Shown in pieces: positions 49,807 through 58,797 of a DNA stretch of 64,000 nt. A program made the position numbers and the translations under genes. A model generated the notes under the pieces. It was not told where the DNA came from, made no database searches, and worked only from the letters and a program-made list of their open reading frames with translations. The DNA is from Flavobacteriales bacterium (GTDB lineage: Bacteria > Bacteroidota > Bacteroidia > Flavobacteriales_D > Crocinitomicaceae), in the NCBI GenBank assembly GCA_947500875.1, contig CANMUN010000004.1, forward strand, positions 1-64,000, read 5' to 3'. The number at the start of each line of letters is the position of its first letter. Position 1 is the stretch's first letter.

Positions 49807-51071
49807 AACGAGGCTTGGTGTGGTTTACGGAGGATTTAAGGGTGGATGATAATGAAACCTTGCTTAAAGCCATTGAAGAAAACGATGAAATCGTCCCTGT
49901 TTTTTTCTTAAAATCGTTCGCCGATCAACCGCAATTTTCGATCCTGCGAAGAGGCCTGGCTCGCGAAAAATTCATCCGGGATTCCCTGTTGAATTTGCAG
50001 AAGAAGTTCATCGACCGTGGAGGAACCTTGTTGGTGGTAGATGGAGTTCCCCAAGCCGAATTACCTAGGTTGTGCGTCGAATACCAAATCCGCAAGGTTT
50101 ACACCAAGAAACAAGTAGGAAGCGAAGAGAAAATGCTCCAAACGGAAATTAAACAACAGCTGTTAAAACTTGGGGTTGATTTTCAAACCTATTCAACCAG
50201 TACTTTATACCACCCCGATGATTTGCCATTCAGCGTACGGGATATTCCCATGCTTTTCACCAAGTTTCGAAAATTAGCCGAAAAGGAATCCAAGGTACGC
50301 GCTCCTTTTGACGCACCTCAGCGCATTGTTACCCCTCAACTTGAAGTCTTGCCTCTGGAAGTGGAGGAATGCTCAACACCCGAATGGATGATCGGAGGGG
50401 AGGATGCTGCCCTGGAACGCCTTAACGAGTTCGTTTGGGAAACACAATCCATTCGTACCTACAAAGCAACACGGGATCAATTGACTGGGTTGAATTTTTC
50501 ATCGAAACTCTCGGCATGGTTAAGCCAAGGGTGTATATCCCCAAGACGCATTTATAGCGAAATTAAGCGGTATGAACTCGAGTTCGTTTCCAATGAATCC
50601 ACCTATTGGGTCATTTTTGAATTATTGTGGCGCGATTTTTTTCGCTTCAGTTTCAAGAAGCATCCTAAAGCCTATTTCCTATTAAACGGCCTTGGACAAC
50701 AGGCGCTTTACACGCAATTTGATCCAAGCAAATTTGAAGCATGGACCCAAGGTAAAACGAGTGAATCCTTGATTAATGCAGGAATGAATGAACTTCGAGT
50801 AAGCGGTTTCGTTTCAAACCGCATGCGACAGATTTTGGCCAGTTATTGGGTGTTTGGTTTACAACAAGATTGGCGCTACGGCGCGGCGTGGTTTGAACAT
50901 TGTTTGGTAGACTATGACGTAGCTTCGAATTGGGGGAATTGGGCCTATATTGCTGGGGTGGGAAACGACAACCGAGGAGGACGAGAATTCAACATCGAAA
51001 AGCAAACGCAGTTGTTCGATAAGGATGGGGAGTACCGCAGGACTTGGGGAGAGTTTTCTAAGGGAGTGTAA
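49803..51071 (+). CDS. DASH family cryptochrome
   Basis: 422 residues. N-terminal [20 protein letters not shown] (2-21) and the VRDIPMLFTKFRKLAE segment are hallmarks of CRY-DASH, as are GCISPRRIYSEI, ELLWRDFFRFSFKKH, NAGMNELRVSGFVSNRMRQI, and the FAD region DWRYGAAWFEHCLVDYDVAS with NWGNWAYIAGVGND. CRY-DASH repairs cyclobutane dimers in single-stranded DNA and may act in signalling. The protein is somewhat shorter than the usual 430-500 residues. Last gene of the operon; ATGA overlap. Confidence 0.94.
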   Translation: MKRGLVWFTEDLRVDDNETLLKAIEENDEIVPVFFLKSFADQPQFSILRRGLAREKFIRDSLLNLQKKFIDRGGTLLVVDGVPQAELPRLCVEYQIRKVYTKKQVGSEEKMLQTEIKQQLLKLGVDFQTYSTSTLYHPDDLPFSVRDIPMLFTKFRKLAEKESKVRAPFDAPQRIVTPQLEVLPLEVEECSTPEWMIGGEDAALERLNEFVWETQSIRTYKATRDQLTGLNFSSKLSAWLSQGCISPRRIYSEIKRYELEFVSNESTYWVIFELLWRDFFRFSFKKHPKAYFLLNGLGQQALYTQFDPSKFEAWTQGKTSESLINAGMNELRVSGFVSNRMRQILASYWVFGLQQDWRYGAAWFEHCLVDYDVASNWGNWAYIAGVGNDNRGGREFNIEKQTQLFDKDGEYRRTWGEFSKGV

Positions 51072-51110
51072 CCAATTTGCACTTGAGGATTACCTTGATA
51101 AATCTACCTC

Positions 51111-51701
51111 ATGCGTTTCTTTTTGTTTGCTCTTAGCGTCTCTCTAATGCACTGCACAATAGCTCAAATGTACCTGCGCAAAAAACAGAACATTGGCTTC
51201 TACACCGGCGGAACGTTTAAAGACGCTCAGTTCAACACGCTTTCCGTGGGTATAACGCGCTCCATGCTGCGGTATTTTGAGCCGGAAATTGGCCTGCGCG
51301 CCACCCTTCCTCTCAAAGCGCCTTCCAATAACACCGAATTGCACAACGTGTACCTCTCCGCTGGTCTTAACCTGCGTAAATCACTTTTTAAGATCAATGA
51401 GCGAAAAGTAGGGCGGTCTTGTCGTGGGGAAATCATTGAGATCTTCGCTGCGCCGGAATACCATCTACTGGTAAAAAGCCAAACGGACCGTTACGATGTT
51501 GGGCAATTTTCCCTCCGAGCAGGCCTTGGTTTGTTCCATTATCAAACTGGTAACTCCAAGCGAAGCGCTTCATGGAATATGAAGGCTCAATTCTATTACC
51601 GCTACGTTCCGGGACCAATTACGAATACTATGTCAATTAAAAACGAATTTGGAATACAATTGCGAATTTTCAAATTCAAAACCTATGATTTTGTAAAGTA
51701 A
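51111..51701 (+). CDS. Small outer membrane beta-barrel-like protein
   Basis: 196 residues. A signal peptide (about 1-18, FFLFALSVSLMHCTIAQ) and then alternating strands ending in aromatic residues, such as IGFYTGGTFKDAQFNTLSVG, FSLRAGLGLFHYQTG and AQFYYRYVPGPI, suggest an 8-stranded outer membrane barrel. The last residues (LRIFKFKTYDFVK) are unlike a T9SS domain. No family can be named. Meets the convergent SIMPL gene with zero bases between. Confidence 0.65.
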   Translation: MRFFLFALSVSLMHCTIAQMYLRKKQNIGFYTGGTFKDAQFNTLSVGITRSMLRYFEPEIGLRATLPLKAPSNNTELHNVYLSAGLNLRKSLFKINERKVGRSCRGEIIEIFAAPEYHLLVKSQTDRYDVGQFSLRAGLGLFHYQTGNSKRSASWNMKAQFYYRYVPGPITNTMSIKNEFGIQLRIFKFKTYDFVK

Positions 51702-52442
51702 TCAATCCACCTCGTACTCCAACCGAATGGTGATGTGGGCGGTTTTTCTGCGAGATGAGGTGTTAAAACTGCCTCCCCAAGCGTAATCTTCAGAACTGTT
51801 CTCCGCGGTAATTTGAAACACTCCCATATCGGCTTGTTGCAAATCTCCCAAACTTCCGCCTCCATTCTCTGCGATTTTTTCCGCCCTCTTGCGAGCATCA
51901 CTCGTGGCCTTTTCAATCATTTTTAACTTTAAATCGGCCATCTTTGTGTAATAATATTCAGGAGCCTGAGAATTCAGTTCAATGCCTGCATTGATCAATT
52001 CGGACACTTGCCGCGAAACGCGGTCCACCAAATCAACATTTTTAGACTGCACTTTGATGTTCTGCGTAATGCTGTAACCGTTGAAATTGGTAGAAATTAA
52101 ATTTCCTTGGTCGTCGTAATCGTAGCTGTACTGCTTTTCAATGTTCGCTGCCTCGATGATGATGTCTTTTTCGGCGACGCCCTTTGTTTTGAGGTAATTT
52201 TTTAAGGCTTTTAAATCTTGGTTTAACGAAGTATACGCCGATTTTAACTCATAATCGTTCCGGCTGAATGAAGCATTCCAAACGATGAGGTCGGAATCAA
52301 AACTTTCTTCGCCCATACCAACCACCTTAATTTTTGGATCGGCTTTGCCTTTGGAAAGATACGACCTTCCTAATACCATTCCTGTTGCAATAACCGCGAT
52401 GCAAATCATAATGATACCTGCATTTTTCTTTAAAAATTCCAT
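51702..52442 (-). CDS. SIMPL domain-containing protein (DUF541)
   Basis: 246 residues. An N-terminal membrane anchor or signal (about 8-28: IIMICIAVIATGMVLGRSYL) is followed by the SIMPL/DUF541 domain: KVVGMGEESFDSDLIVWNAS, SYDYDDQGNLISTNFNGYSI, then the conserved C-terminal helix KLKMIEKATSDARKRAEKIA. Related proteins include the oxidative stress defence protein YggE and BP26. Precise role unclear. A perfect -7 box TAAGTTTG lies at 52460-52453 on the minus strand, 10 bases before the ATG. Confidence 0.85.
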   Translation of the reverse strand: MEFLKKNAGIIMICIAVIATGMVLGRSYLSKGKADPKIKVVGMGEESFDSDLIVWNASFSRNDYELKSAYTSLNQDLKALKNYLKTKGVAEKDIIIEAANIEKQYSYDYDDQGNLISTNFNGYSITQNIKVQSKNVDLVDRVSRQVSELINAGIELNSQAPEYYYTKMADLKLKMIEKATSDARKRAEKIAENGGGSLGDLQQADMGVFQITAENSSEDYAWGGSFNTSSRRKTAHITIRLEYEVD

Positions 52443-52452
52443 GTTTTTTTTC

Positions 52453-52460
52453 CAAACTTA
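52453..52460 (-). promoter_or_regulatory. -7 box of the SIMPL gene
   Basis: Minus-strand TAAGTTTG, perfect TAnnTTTG match, 10 bases before the ATG at 52442 and just after the stop of the large T9SS gene upstream. Confidence 0.5.
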
Positions 52461-52467
52461 TCGATTT

Positions 52468-55263
52468 TTAACGAATAACTACGATGTGTCCTGTTACACG
52501 TTCTTTTTTCGCAGTGGACTTATAACCGAAAGTTACTTCGTAAATGTAAACATCGTCTTGTACAGGCATCCCTTGACTTCCAAAGGTTCCGTCCCACCCT
52601 ACTTGCGGGTTATAGCTTTCCCAGATGATTTCTCCCCATCGGTTATAGATGATTGCACGATAGTTTTGCGGGTCGTTGACATCGCTGAATACCGGTTTCC
52701 AAACATTGTTGAACTGGTTGCCATCAGGAGTAAAGGCATTGGGGATGTAGTAAGCCAATTCATCGCTTACTTCGATTTCTTGAAATGCCGTGTCAGAGCA
52801 TCCATAAGCATTCGTGGCGATTAAGCTAATAACGTAATTGCCACCTTCTATCATTGGGAATTCATGGTATGGTTGCTCCTCGTTGGACAACGAGCTTCCA
52901 TCGCCAAAGTCCCATACATAACTGTTCGCACCTTGGCTTTGATTCGAAAAAGTAGCGCCGTTGTATACGGTGGTAAGGTTCTGACCGAGAATGTTAAATG
53001 TTGCTACTGGTAATGGAAAGGTGCAAACAGCATTTGCTTGCGACATGCTGTAGGTACACCCCAGAGAGGTCATAACGGTAAATTGTGCATCGTAACAACC
53101 TACGTGATTAAACCAAACTACGCTTGAATCTCCGTTGGCCATTGCTCCGTTGCTGAAGTTCCAGGTGTAATCAACGAACGCATTCCCTGTGGCTTGGCTA
53201 ATCAGTTGCACTTCGAGTGGAGCGCATCCGCTGGAGGGCAAAATATCAAACGAAAGGTGCGGTATAGAATCAATACCGATATGCAGGCTGTCGCTTTGTT
53301 GACACCCGTTGTTGTCGGTTCCAATGACCAACAAGTCCAAATTATTATGAATAGTTAGCTGGCTATTATTCGCACTAAGGTTGGACCATTGATAAGAAGA
53401 AGCTCCTGTGGCATGTAAATAAACCGAATTTCCAGAACAGACCACGGTATCATTTCCTGCATTTACCGCGGGTAGTGCAAATACAGTTAGGATCAATGTA
53501 TCCGTGGAAGTACAACCGTTTTGGTCAGCCCCATGCACCACGTAAACAGTATTTCCAACATTCGGACTGACCCATTGTCCGGTTTGTAGGCCGTTTTCCC
53601 ACCAAACTCCCGCAAAGGCATAGGCCTGAAGCGCAACGCTATCGCCGAAACAAAAGGATTCGTTGGCCATCGCTTGAACCGAGTCTATCGTGAAAATACC
53701 CAAGTACAAACTGTCGCTTGCAATGCAATTCAAGCTGTCGGTGCCCACAACCGTAAGCCATTGATTGCTTAAAGGTTGATAGCTTTGTTGTTGGGAAAGG
53801 CCATTTTCCCATTGGTAATTAATTCCTCCAGTGGCAAGAAGTATCGCTGAATTACCTGGGCATAAGTTTGTATCGTTTCCTGCGTTTATGGAGGGCAATG
53901 GGTAAATGGTTAGGGGGCTTATGAGCGTATCTGAACAACCGTTATTGCCAACTTCGATTAATGTTACTGAATAAGTTCCCGGTAAAGCATAGGTGTGGGT
54001 TACGGTCATGCCCCCAAGGCTCGGCGTACCATCGCCGAAATTCCAAGTAGCTCCTTGAATACCCGAAGCTGAGGATAAACCAAAGATGGTTTGTTGATGA
54101 ATGCACGGAGCGTCAAAAATGGGGGCCAAATGGGGAGCTGCTAAAACGGATACCGTTTGAATACTTGTATCGATGCAACCATTCGAGCTTTGAGAAATCA
54201 TCATTACTTGGTGATTGCCGGGACCATTGAATTGCACCAAAGCTTGGGATGGGTTTTGTGATACCACATTTCCTGTCGTCAAATGCCATGTATTGCTTAT
54301 ACTTACGCCTGGATTTGCCGAAGTTATGGTCGCAGTGGATTGTAAAGCAATTAAAGCGTTTTCACATCCCGCGCCGTAAGTGAAACTGGATTGAACAAGG
54401 GTCGGAGTGGCCGTTACATTCAATTCCACCGTACAAGAACCCTGGTTAGAAAAAGTGGTCATGGAGCAAGTGTAGACTTGGTTTACATTCGGGTTTGCAA
54501 TGCTCACTTGTTGACCGGTTAAATTTCCTGGATGCCAAACATAGGATTGAAACCCGCTCGGTGCAGTTAATACAAGCGGCTGATTACCACCGCAATAGTT
54601 GACGTTAATAGCCATGGCCATGCATTCAGCGGCTAAATAAGCGTACCCGAAATGAGCACCTTGAGCACAATCCCAAGTTGTAAACTCTATTTGAATGTTT
54701 TGACCCATATACGGCGATAAATCAACGCCCACTGTAGTCCAAGGAAGCCAGGTTTTTCCTGCACAGGTTTGAAAATTCTGCCCGGGTTGCCCTCCATATA
54801 CGGTGTAGGTGCCGCATCCGCCTCCAACCGGTAGGCCCAAGGCGTTCAGTATTTTTGCTTGAAATTTCGGTTGTTGGGCGGGAACATGTCCTGGATTTTC
54901 TAGTATCACCGCGTATTTATAAACGAACAAATCGCTTTGCGGTGTTACGTTAATGCTGTACACGATTTTCTCCGCTTGAGCTCCCGTTTGTGGGTTACCG
55001 AGTTTAATGGATTTCGAGTGTCCGGGAGGGATTAAGGGAAGTTGGTTACAGGTGTAAGGATCCGTTCCTTGCTGCGAAATAATGGTGTGTCGACCATTGA
55101 CGATGCCGAAGTTTGCCCCAGGAGCAGCGTAAGTGCCTGTGTATCCTGTCCAATTGGAAAACGTGTTCAAGGATAAATCAACGTTAGGACAACCGTTGTT
55201 TTGGGAGAAAAAGACAAAACGTAACAGTAACGCCAATAGGGCGAAAAGAGATTTGTAGCTCAT
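52468..55263 (-). CDS. Large PKD-repeat surface protein with T9SS type B sorting domain
   Basis: 931 residues. Signal peptide about 1-22. An N-terminal lectin/jelly-roll-like region (about 25-220) with VDLSPYMGQNIQIEFTTWDC is followed by several Ig-like/PKD modules; clear ones carry WNFGDGTPSLGG (about 405), YTWNFSNG (about 700) and YVWDFGDGSS (about 785). Repeated segments of the form AGNDTxxCxGNSxxLxATG occur at least twice. The end has the type B sorting domain YYIPNAFTPDGNQFNNVWKP, IYNRWGEIIWES, GWDGTFGSQGMPVQDDVYIY. Likely a surface adhesin or part of extracellular material. Low-complexity repeats may hide finer duplications. Confidence 0.9.
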   Translation of the reverse strand: MSYKSLFALLALLLRFVFFSQNNGCPNVDLSLNTFSNWTGYTGTYAAPGANFGIVNGRHTIISQQGTDPYTCNQLPLIPPGHSKSIKLGNPQTGAQAEKIVYSINVTPQSDLFVYKYAVILENPGHVPAQQPKFQAKILNALGLPVGGGCGTYTVYGGQPGQNFQTCAGKTWLPWTTVGVDLSPYMGQNIQIEFTTWDCAQGAHFGYAYLAAECMAMAINVNYCGGNQPLVLTAPSGFQSYVWHPGNLTGQQVSIANPNVNQVYTCSMTTFSNQGSCTVELNVTATPTLVQSSFTYGAGCENALIALQSTATITSANPGVSISNTWHLTTGNVVSQNPSQALVQFNGPGNHQVMMISQSSNGCIDTSIQTVSVLAAPHLAPIFDAPCIHQQTIFGLSSASGIQGATWNFGDGTPSLGGMTVTHTYALPGTYSVTLIEVGNNGCSDTLISPLTIYPLPSINAGNDTNLCPGNSAILLATGGINYQWENGLSQQQSYQPLSNQWLTVVGTDSLNCIASDSLYLGIFTIDSVQAMANESFCFGDSVALQAYAFAGVWWENGLQTGQWVSPNVGNTVYVVHGADQNGCTSTDTLILTVFALPAVNAGNDTVVCSGNSVYLHATGASSYQWSNLSANNSQLTIHNNLDLLVIGTDNNGCQQSDSLHIGIDSIPHLSFDILPSSGCAPLEVQLISQATGNAFVDYTWNFSNGAMANGDSSVVWFNHVGCYDAQFTVMTSLGCTYSMSQANAVCTFPLPVATFNILGQNLTTVYNGATFSNQSQGANSYVWDFGDGSSLSNEEQPYHEFPMIEGGNYVISLIATNAYGCSDTAFQEIEVSDELAYYIPNAFTPDGNQFNNVWKPVFSDVNDPQNYRAIIYNRWGEIIWESYNPQVGWDGTFGSQGMPVQDDVYIYEVTFGYKSTAKKERVTGHIVVIR

Positions 55264-55326
55264 AAATGTCAGGGTTAAGGTGTGATGTGGTCCAAAACGA
55301 TCAGCCTCCTACGTTTCGTATAAGCC

Positions 55327-55349
55327 GTTGAAAAGTTCATGATTTCAAC
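55327..55349. other. Inverted repeat between divergent genes
   Basis: GTTGAAA (55327-55333) and TTTCAAC (55343-55349) are perfect 7-bp arms with a 9-base spacer, in the 183-base gap between the divergent large PKD gene and the small secreted protein gene. Possibly an operator; no regulator is known. Confidence 0.3.
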
Positions 55350-55446
55350 TATTGGAATCAATAAAAACGAGATTGGGCAACCCAAACGACCAATCGTGCG
55401 TTTTGTGAACAAAATTTCTTATTTTCGAACAATAATTACAAGCAAC

Positions 55447-55812
55447 ATGAAAAAAGTATTCTTTTCGTTTTTATTCATCATGGCGTTCTCTGCAGGAGTC
55501 AATGCACAAGTTTATGCGGTTGCCGCCTCCAAAACGGAGTATGCTACTCAAAAGGCCAACGGTGTAATAACCTTTCGATTTGGGGCTGATGTTTTGCCAG
55601 AAACAATCATTGCTAGTGGCGAGAATTTTACCGAGAATTTTACGACATCCTTTGATGCTACAACCTATGTTGGCACTTTCACCATGAAAGAAAACACCGA
55701 ATTGAACCGCCTTATGTTGGGGCGTTTGTTGATCATGTGTGGGGTTGAAGTCGTTGAGTTTGAAGGAAACCAACTTCCGGTTTATCAGTTTTCCAACGAA
55801 CAATTAAAGTAA
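55447..55812 (+). CDS. Small exported protein of unknown function
   Basis: 121 residues. Signal peptide 1-20 (KKVFFSFLFIMAFSAGVNAQ). The mature part is a small alpha-beta domain, possibly ferredoxin-like (DATTYVGTFTMKENTELNRL, then GRLLIMCGVEVVEFEGNQLP). No family is recognised. The frame opens at 55339, but the signal peptide begins at 55447. A -7-like TATTTTCG lies at 55420-55427. It ends 19 bases before the adenosine deaminase fusion, so both may share a transcript. Confidence 0.72.
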   Translation: MKKVFFSFLFIMAFSAGVNAQVYAVAASKTEYATQKANGVITFRFGADVLPETIIASGENFTENFTTSFDATTYVGTFTMKENTELNRLMLGRLLIMCGVEVVEFEGNQLPVYQFSNEQLK

Positions 55813-55831
55813 GCGAAAGCCGGATCGGCGC

Positions 55832-57340
55832 ATGATAAATTTTACGTTTCCGAAGGTGGAGCTTCACCTTCACATTGATTGCTCGCTCAGTTTTAATTTT
55901 GTTTCCAAAGTACTTCCTAGAATTTCTCGCGAAGAATACGAGCGCGTTTATAATACACCCGTTGATTGCTGTTCCCTCAACGATTATTTGGCTTGTGCGA
56001 AGGCAGCAATAGCCTTGATGCAAACCCGAGAGCAAATTTTCGATGCAACGTTGGATGTTATTCATCAGTTGGAACAAGACCATGTCATCTATGGCGAATT
56101 GAGATTCGCTCCGCTTCAACATCTTGAAAACGGATTAACCCCAGAGGAAGTGGTGGAAGCCAGCATTGACGCAGTGAAATCCTACCAAGGGCCCGTCAAG
56201 GTAAATTTAATTCTATGTACCCTTCGACATTTTACCCGCGAACAAAGCGATTTAACCGCAGATTTAGTCATTAAATACCACCAGCAAGGAGTAGTTGCCC
56301 TCGATTTAGCCGCGGATGAAGTGGGTTTTAATCTGGAAAATCATGCTGCTGCGTTTGAAAAAGTACGCCAGCATAAAATTCCTTGTACCGCGCATGCTGG
56401 AGAAGCCCGAGGGGCAGAATCTGTGATAGAAACCCTTTCCTTACTACAAACCAAACGCATTGGCCATGGCATTCGCAGCGTTGAAGATCCTGCGTTGATG
56501 GAAAGGTTGAAAAGCGACCGAATACATTTGGAAATTTGTCCTACTAGCAACCATATAACGCAAGTTTATCCGAAGGGAGAAAATTACCCTATTGAAAAGC
56601 TTAAGCAGGCGAATGTTTCATTCGGTATCAATACCGACGGTCGAGCCATATCCAATGTAACACTCGCCGACGAGTACGCTTGGTTGGTTCAAAACAAGGC
56701 TTGGACCATTGATGACATGTTTCAAGCAAACGTAGACGCCTTAAATGCTGCGTTTATTAGTGATGAAGAGCGAAGTGCCATGATGAATAAACTGCTTATG
56801 GGATTTCAATTCGCAGGACTTGGTCCCGAAACAAGGATTAATATCTATGCAGGTAATCGAGAGTTTATTGAACTAAGCAATTTTGCGAAACGACCATTTG
56901 ACTATACGGGTGATGGCGAACCTGATTTTGATAGGGAAAAGTTTGGAGGGTTTTTTGAAACCGTTGAAGGGGCTTTTCAGGCACAAAAAGTGCGCTTTTT
57001 GGACCCTAATCTTTTCACGGAATCACCAAGGCATGATGCCGCTATGAGTCATATAAGAAGGTTAAGGACCGCTACAGGTAGCCAAGCCAAAATTTGGGGG
57101 CAAGAAATTGAAGGACTCAATCGGGATGCTTGGAATGCTCATTCTTCACGAATTATGATGTCTTTACTGATGCAATCTTTCCAACAAAATCCATATGCTT
57201 GCCGATTATTGCTTGCAACGGGTAATGCAACGCTTACCCATCATCAAAGAAATGAGGATGCTTGGAGTGTAAAATTCCCAAAACTACTCATGAAAGTGCG
57301 TGAAGAACTTCGGAGAACTCAAGATAATATTCAAAGTTAA
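55832..57340 (+). CDS. Adenosine deaminase fused to a C-terminal NADAR (YbiA-like) domain
   Basis: 502 residues, about 160 longer than ordinary adenosine deaminases. Residues 1-330 are an ADA: zinc ligands in ELHLHIDCSL (10-19), TAHAGEARGAES (186-197) with the catalytic H188 and E191, RIGHGI (209-214), EICPTSN (234-240) and SFGINTDGRA (263-272) with zinc ligand D269. The second aspartate of the NTDD motif is glycine, as in the NTD-N/G-R subgroup. Residues 335-495 match the NADAR/YbiA fold: INIYAGNREFIELSNF (336-351), VEGAFQAQK (378-386), RDAWNAHSSRIMMSLLMQSF (431-450), LLLATGNATL (459-468) and EDAW (475-478). YbiA-type enzymes cleave N-glycosidic bonds and NADAR proteins remove ADP-ribose from guanine bases. 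Chain is uninterrupted in one frame. No signal peptide, so cytoplasmic. Confidence 0.88.
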   Translation: MINFTFPKVELHLHIDCSLSFNFVSKVLPRISREEYERVYNTPVDCCSLNDYLACAKAAIALMQTREQIFDATLDVIHQLEQDHVIYGELRFAPLQHLENGLTPEEVVEASIDAVKSYQGPVKVNLILCTLRHFTREQSDLTADLVIKYHQQGVVALDLAADEVGFNLENHAAAFEKVRQHKIPCTAHAGEARGAESVIETLSLLQTKRIGHGIRSVEDPALMERLKSDRIHLEICPTSNHITQVYPKGENYPIEKLKQANVSFGINTDGRAISNVTLADEYAWLVQNKAWTIDDMFQANVDALNAAFISDEERSAMMNKLLMGFQFAGLGPETRINIYAGNREFIELSNFAKRPFDYTGDGEPDFDREKFGGFFETVEGAFQAQKVRFLDPNLFTESPRHDAAMSHIRRLRTATGSQAKIWGQEIEGLNRDAWNAHSSRIMMSLLMQSFQQNPYACRLLLATGNATLTHHQRNEDAWSVKFPKLLMKVREELRRTQDNIQS

Positions 57341-57357
57341 AATCTGAAGTTAAACAA

Positions 57358-58236
57358 TCACCGTCGCTTTAGGTTGAAGATCAACGATACCCCCAAACGG
57401 TAGTACGTATCTTTTTGATTCAGGTCTCCGCGCCGGCTACCGGGTGGAAAAAGTTCGGGACTTTTACTCGGATTCGAAAGGTAAAGGGCGGCAGGGTCCG
57501 TTAACACGCCTGCTTCAGGATAGAAGGTGGACACGTCGTCCATGTAATCTGTAAAAGTTTTAAAACAAGTAGCCTCAATGCCTATTCGAATTTGCTTCGT
57601 TAGTCCGAACCGCATTCCAAACCCCAAAGGCATAATAAAGGTGGCTTTTCCATATTCTTGACCTTCCGTTTTAAGGGGTCTAAGTGCAACAAGGGTTCCG
57701 TTGTAATTAGCTTTTGGGTTGTAGGTGGCAAAACCCATACCCCCAAAAGTGTACAATTGAAAATTCGAACCTTTTTGTCGGCTTCGGGAGGTGAGGCGGT
57801 AAAATTGACCGTTGAATTCTTGTGCCAGAAAAATAAACTCGAGGCGCTGGCTGAATTCAAAGTTGTACGATTGAAAATACAAGTTTCGTGCATTGCGCCT
57901 CGGATTATCGGTGTAAGCGTCGCTGCCTTTCAGCTCAAAATAACTCACCTCGGTTTTGGTAGCAAAATACCGATTGAAACGAAACTTAAAAGCCGCTTGG
58001 ACACCTTTTCCAGTAGCCTGCTTGTTCATGTCCTTAGTAGAATAATCCTTACCTTGTCCCGAAGCACCTCCGAGGTCACCGGTAAACTGGGTTGCACAAA
58101 AACCTACCTGCGCCTCTAATCGATTACTACTCCAATTCGCTCGATTGTTGAAATTTTCCCATTTGAGACGTTGGGAAGCAATAGGGAGAGAAATAACCAG
58201 TAAAAAACAAAGTGCGACGCTTTTGTTTTGAAACAT
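57358..58236 (-). CDS. Outer membrane beta-barrel protein (DUF6089-like)
   Basis: 292 residues. A signal peptide (about 1-22) is followed by alternating beta-strands typical of small outer membrane barrels: LEAQVGFCATQFTGDLGG, FRFNRYFATKTEVSYFELKG, FQLYTFGGMGFATYNPKANY, IMPLGFGMRFGLTKQIRIGI, and the last strand YYRLGVSLIFNLK. The GDLGG and PLGFGMRFG pieces resemble the DUF6089 family found in Bacteroidota. Role unknown. Ten bases follow the stop of a small membrane protein on the same strand. Confidence 0.78.
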   Translation of the reverse strand: MFQNKSVALCFLLVISLPIASQRLKWENFNNRANWSSNRLEAQVGFCATQFTGDLGGASGQGKDYSTKDMNKQATGKGVQAAFKFRFNRYFATKTEVSYFELKGSDAYTDNPRRNARNLYFQSYNFEFSQRLEFIFLAQEFNGQFYRLTSRSRQKGSNFQLYTFGGMGFATYNPKANYNGTLVALRPLKTEGQEYGKATFIMPLGFGMRFGLTKQIRIGIEATCFKTFTDYMDDVSTFYPEAGVLTDPAALYLSNPSKSPELFPPGSRRGDLNQKDTYYRLGVSLIFNLKRR

Positions 58237-58712: not shown

Positions 58713-58797
58713 TGGTGCCCACGACTGGATTCGAACCAGCACACCTATTGGCACCACCCCCTCAAGATGGCGTGTCTACCAATTTCACCACGTGGGC
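58713..58797 (-). tRNA. tRNA-Leu, anticodon GAG
   Basis: The 85-base minus-strand gene starts GCCCACGTGGTGAAATTGG and ends GTGGGCACCA, with the seven-base acceptor stem GCCCACG/CGTGGGC and an encoded CCA. The anticodon loop CTTGAGG gives GAG (58763-58761). A leucine-type long variable arm (GGTGCCAATAGGTGTG region) and the T-arm GGTTCGAATCC are present. It reads CUC and CUU. Confidence 0.93.

Follow-up and report, generated by a model that had tools for sequence, protein, structure and literature searches.

We confirmed that the window (the whole stretch of 64,000 nucleotides analyzed here) encodes a fusion of an adenosine deaminase (ADA) with a NADAR domain, and we found that this NADAR, judged by its kinship, is of a phage type. 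We think it somewhat probable that the domain was captured from a phage and that it likely works as an ADP-ribosyl N-glycosidase independent of the ordinary ADA beside it. According to this proposal, a chromosomal housekeeping-type ADA gene would have gained an in-frame 3' segment of ~510 bp encoding a NADAR of the kind present on giant virion-polymerase-like proteins of crAss-like phages. We predict that the ADA half acts as a deaminase on adenosine or deoxyadenosine and that ADP-ribosyl N-glycosidic bonds (guanine-ADP-ribose in nucleic acid, or small conjugates) are hydrolyzed by the NADAR half; the two halves would most likely be independent enzymes, and the fusion would give the phage domain a resident gene for its expression. 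What the sequences show is the fusion itself, its absence in relatives, the grouping of its NADAR with those of phages, the conserved core and the fold prediction; the direction of transfer, the two enzymatic activities and a possible advantage for the cell are our inference. If the proposal is true, it describes a capture that can be traced: relatives show the empty site, and a phage domain otherwise found on virion-polymerase-like proteins would have joined a housekeeping enzyme of a bacterium.

The fusion lies at 55832-57340 on the plus strand, where both the ORF list and the translation give a single uninterrupted ATG frame of 502 aa, with the stop codon (57338-57340, +) counted in the coordinates. 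The ADA part (residues 1-326; 55832-56809, +) was delimited by Pfam, NCBIfam, motifs and orthology to unfused ADAs. The rest of the frame (residues 327-502; 56810-57337, +) holds a linker and the NADAR, assigned to the phage type from Pfam, the tree and AlphaFold2, and has no counterpart in the unfused orthologs. In Pfam, the adenosine deaminase profile PF00962 matched residues 7-321 with 243.9 bits (cut-off 27) and the NADAR profile PF08719 matched residues 344-482 with 53.8 bits (gathering cut-off 35.1); the junction falls within residues 324-334 (GFQFAGLGPET). Towards the C-terminus the PF08719 match is incomplete, covering profile positions 9-133 of 163; the WGDGG...GKN loop of YbiA is missing from NADARs of the phage type.

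A second copy of the fusion is present in another species, on contig VGMY01000030.1 of a Bacteroidetes metagenome-assembled genome (G238; loci L004/L006). This copy is 92% identical to the window protein over its full length and also has both domains in one frame, and thus an assembly error is unlikely. The sequence-only reading had proposed that one frame joins an ADA to a NADAR, and the 502-aa frame, the two profile matches above their cut-offs and the agreement of the second genome bear this out. We did consider that the fusion might be an artefact of assembly or binning, as both carriers are draft genomes (102 contigs for the window's own and about 50 for the second, each about 93% complete) and the second is metagenome-assembled, or that a deletion had joined a chromosomal bacterial NADAR to the ADA. 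Either origin appears extremely unlikely: the junction is identical in the two species, those bacterial NADARs from the phylum sample that we read belong to different types, and the window has the usual neighbors of this ADA on both sides, while the second genome has the usual upstream neighbor and its contig ends in the downstream one.

These neighbors are a small protein of 121 aa (55447-55812, +), which has a signal-peptide-like start by eye, ends 19 bp before the fusion and is 157 aa long if read from an earlier ATG in the ORF list, and a convergent protein of 292 aa (57358-58236, -), which looks outer-membrane-like by eye. We found that the same two neighbors flank an unfused ADA of 332 or 328 aa in eight of the nine loci inspected (L007-L014), and that the ninth (L015) has the upstream neighbor only; this inspection covered L007-L015. 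In all nine, 121-aa proteins occupy the upstream place, with kinship judged by eye for L013-L015, and relatives of the convergent protein lie downstream in L007-L014 and are absent there in L015. Moreover, the nine closest unfused ADAs (L007-L012 and L035-L037) end eight residues past a GF that aligns with the GF of the junction. Thus, ~510 bp were added at the 3' end of the gene, with its last few codons replaced. A single tRNA gene was detected in the whole window, for tRNA-Leu(gag) (58713-58797, -), ~1.4 kb from the fusion.

The fusion is rare, being present in two of 86 genomes of the genus, the window's own (G000) and the metagenome-assembled one. ADA itself is patchy in the genus, in which 21 of the 86 genomes have any match: two fusions, 14 unfused orthologs (L007-L015 and L035-L039; 50-74% identity), one fragment of 85 residues where a contig breaks off and four remote ADAs (23-27% identity), the last being the only matches in their genomes. 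When we scanned 299 genomes of the order with the fusion protein, 110 had a match, and both parts were covered in the same two genomes only. PF08719 gave 40 matches in 34 of 335 genomes of the phylum, of which only that of the window came from a frame exceeding 324 aa. No match covered 80% of the fusion query in phage and plasmid records, no viral contig matched the full fusion protein in the viral contig scan, and a contig search for the fusion protein found VGMY01000030.1 alone. Looking for the two domains in one chain and mapping the neighbors, as the sequence-only reading had proposed, thus brought one further species and otherwise none in these samples; since the searches were of genome samples or were scans for close relatives, a distant ADA-NADAR fusion elsewhere could escape them. 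Among the matches listed in the open-access literature, there was no report of an ADA-NADAR fusion.

The ADA half has unfused orthologs of 328-336 aa (50-74% identity) and scores 257.4 bits against the adenosine deaminase equivalog TIGR01430 of NCBIfam (cut-off 216.55). In mouse ADA, the zinc and catalytic motifs are HxH, H-A-G-E, G-H-G and T-D, and a second aspartate follows, giving NTDD. The window protein has HLH at 12-14, HAGE at 188-191, IGHG at 210-213 and NTDGR at 267-271, so that it resembles bacterial ADAs in being above the equivalog cut-off and in keeping HxH, HAGE, IGHG and NTD, but differs from them in having NTDG for NTDD as well as a C-terminal NADAR. With glycine at residue 270 in place of the second aspartate, the ADA assignment is one of family kinship rather than of a proven substrate. 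The NTDG motif (267-270), although correctly read from the sequence, had been taken as a hint of an altered substrate tied to the fusion, and this does not hold: TDGR is present in all 14 unfused genus orthologs that were fetched and also in L016 from outside the genus, and thus NTDG predates the fusion. PADLOC assigned residues 60-320 to CARF5--CARF_ADA, a match that arises from the shared ADA family; in contrast to CRISPR-associated CARF-ADA, the window frame has no CARF part in Pfam.

The relatives of the NADAR half are found largely among phages, a kinship that the earlier reading did not mention. The annotated phage records that match it are all crAss-like: cr126_1 (48% identity, two records), cr130_1 (35%) and cr131_1 (33%). 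Even its nearest relatives in phages reach no more than about 50-55% identity. In PHROGs, it matched phrog_1017 (E 3.5e-16) and phrog_652 (8e-14), both families of unknown function. As a single-sequence query, the window NADAR matched in three of 395 phylum genomes including its own (the others at 1e-4), in four crAss-like phage records (two of them the same phage) and in four ybiA records of E. coli; in viral contigs the single sequence found nothing, and the alignment-based scans alone gave loci, 45 in one (L046-L090) and 65 in a second with many contigs in common. The strong results for the NADAR thus depend on the alignments A1, A2 or A5, and the 45 loci, which include near-identical contigs, are not 45 independent cases. 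Alignment A2 holds 31 of the 45 viral loci, three crAss phages and the two fusions; 14 loci that were near-copies, recoded or frame-broken were left out (L048, L055, L059-L062, L066, L070, L072, L082-L085 and L088).

Profile searches set the two fusions apart from other bacterial NADARs. With the A2 profile, four of 86 genus genomes matched, the two fusions at ~1e-55 and two others only at 1e-6. Among 395 phylum genomes, 30 matched, led by the window at 1.2e-55 and followed by G626 at 1.7e-18, with the rest at 1.5e-10 or weaker; the G626 protein (L110), the next best, has the YbiA-type glutamate and reads as YbiA-type. With A1, a smaller profile, matches came from 13 of the 299 genomes of the order, and only the two fusions went beyond 1e-8. 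We also built a tree of 56 rows (L118, with an extracted frame of 6 aa, was left out), in which 34 phage rows and the two fusions share one side of a split with 92/87 support and L050 is the sister of the two fusions at 97/87. The split that holds phages and fusions together has a bootstrap of 92%, although resolution among the phage rows is poor and some branches are flagged as long; the fusion NADARs are separated from the nearest phage row by a long branch (1.04 changes per column). This distribution of the NADAR, among phages as opposed to the genomes of the genus, order and phylum, is why we propose that the transfer went from phage to host.

The predicted structure of the NADAR half is complete rather than degenerate; with the PF08719 match above its cut-off, neither outcome named in the sequence-only reading as speaking against it was obtained. 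AlphaFold2 modeled this part alone with a pLDDT of 90.1 and a pTM of 0.88 (34 rows), and the full-length protein with 50.3 and 0.42 from an alignment (A6) that held two ADA rows. Foldseek gave just two PDB matches at E 0.001 or better, YbiA (2b3w) and the ADP-ribose-bound NADAR 8bau, and VIA-align gave Z scores of 16.4 to 8bau, 14.8 to 2b3w and 8.3 to 8bat (the G. lovleyi NADAR). The core residues are kept: E379, K386 and H470 match E43, K50 and E125 of 8bau, with the numbering matched to that in passages of PMC11543638, and all 36 aligned rows (34 phage rows and the two fusions) have E, K and H without exception. Passages of the same source report that phage NADARs have histidine in place of E125; the window NADAR has this phage-subfamily histidine, H470, and not the glutamate of the YbiA subfamily. 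Several ADP-ribose contacts of 8bau are changed in the window NADAR (R79 to Q, Y84 to L and R93 to S), and the phage rows have L at the Y84 position in 29 of 34 cases and S at the R93 position in 31 of 34; D130, whose placement is unreliable, was left out of this comparison. The motif EGAFQAQK (within 377-386), again correctly read, had been considered unusual and suggestive of altered specificity, but G is the commonest residue after the core glutamate in phage-type NADARs (18 of 34). Thus, of the sequence-only reading, the in-frame fusion and the core residues stand, the hints of altered specificity do not, and the joint pathway is unsupported.

Comparison with described NADARs places the domain nearest to those of the crAss-like giant proteins, such as cr126_1 gp003 (YP_010111697.1). 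These fall on the same side of the tree and have the invariant E, K and H, and several have similar linkers, with GPET before and TQ after the domain. The difference is in the partner, a virion-polymerase-like protein there and a bacterial ADA here; the polymerase region is absent from the 502-aa frame, in which Pfam finds ADA and NADAR only. RB49 gp30.3, which is T4-like, also has histidine at the E125 position and shares the stretches IYAG, LSNF, RPF and LLATGN, but it is a stand-alone gene with ~27% identity and arginine at the K50 position, and lies outside the phage clade, on a long branch on the opposite side of the 92/87 split. YbiA shares the fold, but the window NADAR has histidine for its glutamate, lacks its loop and scores 36.4 bits against the riboflavin N-glycosidase model TIGR02464, below the cut-off of 73.7. 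The DarT1-linked NADAR antitoxins share the core E and K and a lysine matching K115 (PMC11543638, in passages), whereas their catalytic D171 corresponds to H in the window NADAR, and we found no DarT (PF14487) match in the window's own genome (0 of 1, about 93% complete). For the phage side, excerpts of PMC11125620 report that an E. coli phage NADAR hydrolyzes guanosine-ADP-ribose in vitro and that the same protein does not rescue cells from DarT1.

The physical linkage of both domains in one chain raised the idea, put forward in the sequence-only reading, of a joint pathway in which a nucleoside released or prepared by the NADAR would go on to be deaminated by the ADA. We consider such coupling improbable. 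The ADA is unfused in all 14 other genus orthologs fetched, which is thus its usual state, and has the same motif in them without the fusion; the NADAR appears to have a separate origin, and no sign of a shared substrate emerged. Moreover, the products that the known NADAR reactions yield are not known to be substrates of ADA. The joint pathway is thus unsupported, though not disproved, and two independent activities appear to be the better account of the fusion.

Comparison of the two fusion genomes revealed a very different pattern of change in the two halves. Residues 2-279 of the ADA have 29 nonsynonymous to 92 synonymous differences (N:S), and the NADAR has 13:6 (Fisher p 2e-4), with a dN/dS of 0.43-0.58 in the NADAR; dS amounts to 0.60-0.67 for the ADA and to 0.06-0.07 for the NADAR. 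The low dS belongs to a stretch of raised DNA identity (56671-57489, unstranded, from the DNA comparison) that takes in the 3' end of the ADA, the NADAR and the end of the neighbor, and whose right limit is set by the end of the other contig. The low dS of the NADAR could reflect a recent exchange of the fusion between species. This is one explanation among others, since identity to L004 across 50401-57489 is a mosaic, varying from 57% to 98% in 100-bp steps (part of the comparison near 51000-51700 may be misaligned), with further steps at 95% or more along the locus. In a second stretch of 95% identity, in a neighboring gene, N:S is 0:14, and thus recency alone need not explain the excess in the NADAR. 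The ADA 3' end within the low-divergence stretch has an N:S of 4:1, and thus some of the excess may be a property of this stretch rather than of the NADAR. Overall, the NADAR appears to be either weakly constrained or too young to tell.

This weak constraint is the main support for a different account, in which the NADAR is a functionless phage fragment tolerated at the end of the ADA and harmless to it. We regard this as possible, if doubtful. A tolerated fragment fits the N:S contrast between the halves, which the 0:14 of the other stretch shows need not follow from recency, the presence in only two of 86 genus genomes, and the long branch to the nearest phage row; it fits less well with a frame that is still open, with E, K and H that are the same in both species and with the confident fold of the window copy, and the 4:1 of the ADA tail suggests that the excess may in part not be peculiar to the NADAR. 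Apart from the weak constraint, the points that count against a captured, active NADAR are the changed 8bau contacts, the lack of a DarT match in the same genome, the failure of the tested phage NADAR to rescue cells from DarT1, the two carrier genomes only, the distance of the phage relatives, the poor resolution of the phage part of the tree and the empty single-sequence scan of viral contigs. We nevertheless favor the captured domain as an independent enzyme.

We also examined the phage frames that carry this NADAR. Of the 45, 33 match crAss001 gp50, a virion RNA polymerase (E 1e-5 or better), and 33 have DFDxD, which we take to be a polymerase motif; 35 have either feature, 31 have both and 10 have neither, the last including short or recoded frames. 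The NADAR comes after DFDxD in 32 of the 33 contig frames having this motif, and is near the N-terminus in cr126_1 gp003, a gp50 homolog; by BLAST, crAss001 gp50 itself has no NADAR. A terminase related to that of cr126_1 was found in 19 of the 45 contigs, often weakly, and a relative of its capsid protein in six, counts that are to be read knowing that many of the contigs are fragments. Excerpts of PMC10172136 report that gp47, gp49 and gp50 of crAss001 were detected in virions by mass spectrometry and propose their ejection, which suggests that the NADAR-bearing gp50 homologs are also packaged. NADARs are described as frequently packaged in virions, particularly those of contractile-tailed phages, in passages of PMC9503650, in which the word crAss does not occur. 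No report of a NADAR on crAss-like polymerases appeared among the matches listed in the open-access literature, and the fusion thus draws attention to a NADAR family on these polymerases and makes testable what the abundant crAss-like phages remove on entry.

The phage NADAR appears to move as a cassette, because in two pairs of loci the NADAR is the one highly similar DNA segment, with no further blastn match at E 1e-3: L046/L048 over 471 bp at 97.5%, and L071/L074 over 447 bp at 92.6%. Three more pairs (L049/L056, L053/L069 and L080/L087) also share the NADAR alone, at 77-83%, and L063/L080 share several long DNA stretches. In a comparison of flanks at 39 of the 45 loci (L059, L075, L082, L083, L084 and L088 were left out), the NADARs formed one BLAST group and their upstream flanks 13. 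We rejected the reading of these 13 groups as unrelated contexts, as most of the flanks are diverged polymerase-like proteins.

A more speculative extension, which we offer tentatively, is that the NADAR is a mobile counter-defense cassette on the injected crAss-like polymerase that would strip ADP-ribose marks or signals at the onset of infection, and that it was domesticated here, keeping de-ADP-ribosylation either to counter ADP-ribosylating toxins or to restrain the cell's own ADP-ribose-based immunity. The host might instead retain the NADAR, catalytic or not, as a decoy or competitor for whatever the phage polymerase-NADAR protein binds or acts on. Such a decoy role in defense seems to us quite unlikely: it would accord with a NADAR type that otherwise occurs on phage proteins and with the packaging of the crAss001 homolog in virions (PMC10172136, in excerpts), but PADLOC has no model for the ADA-NADAR architecture, and its matches were CARF-ADA for the ADA half and PDC-M42C (E 2e-5) for the NADAR half. 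Separately, we note that a tandem pair of stand-alone NADAR genes, different in type, is present in the window's own genome on contig C81 (562-1681; L002).
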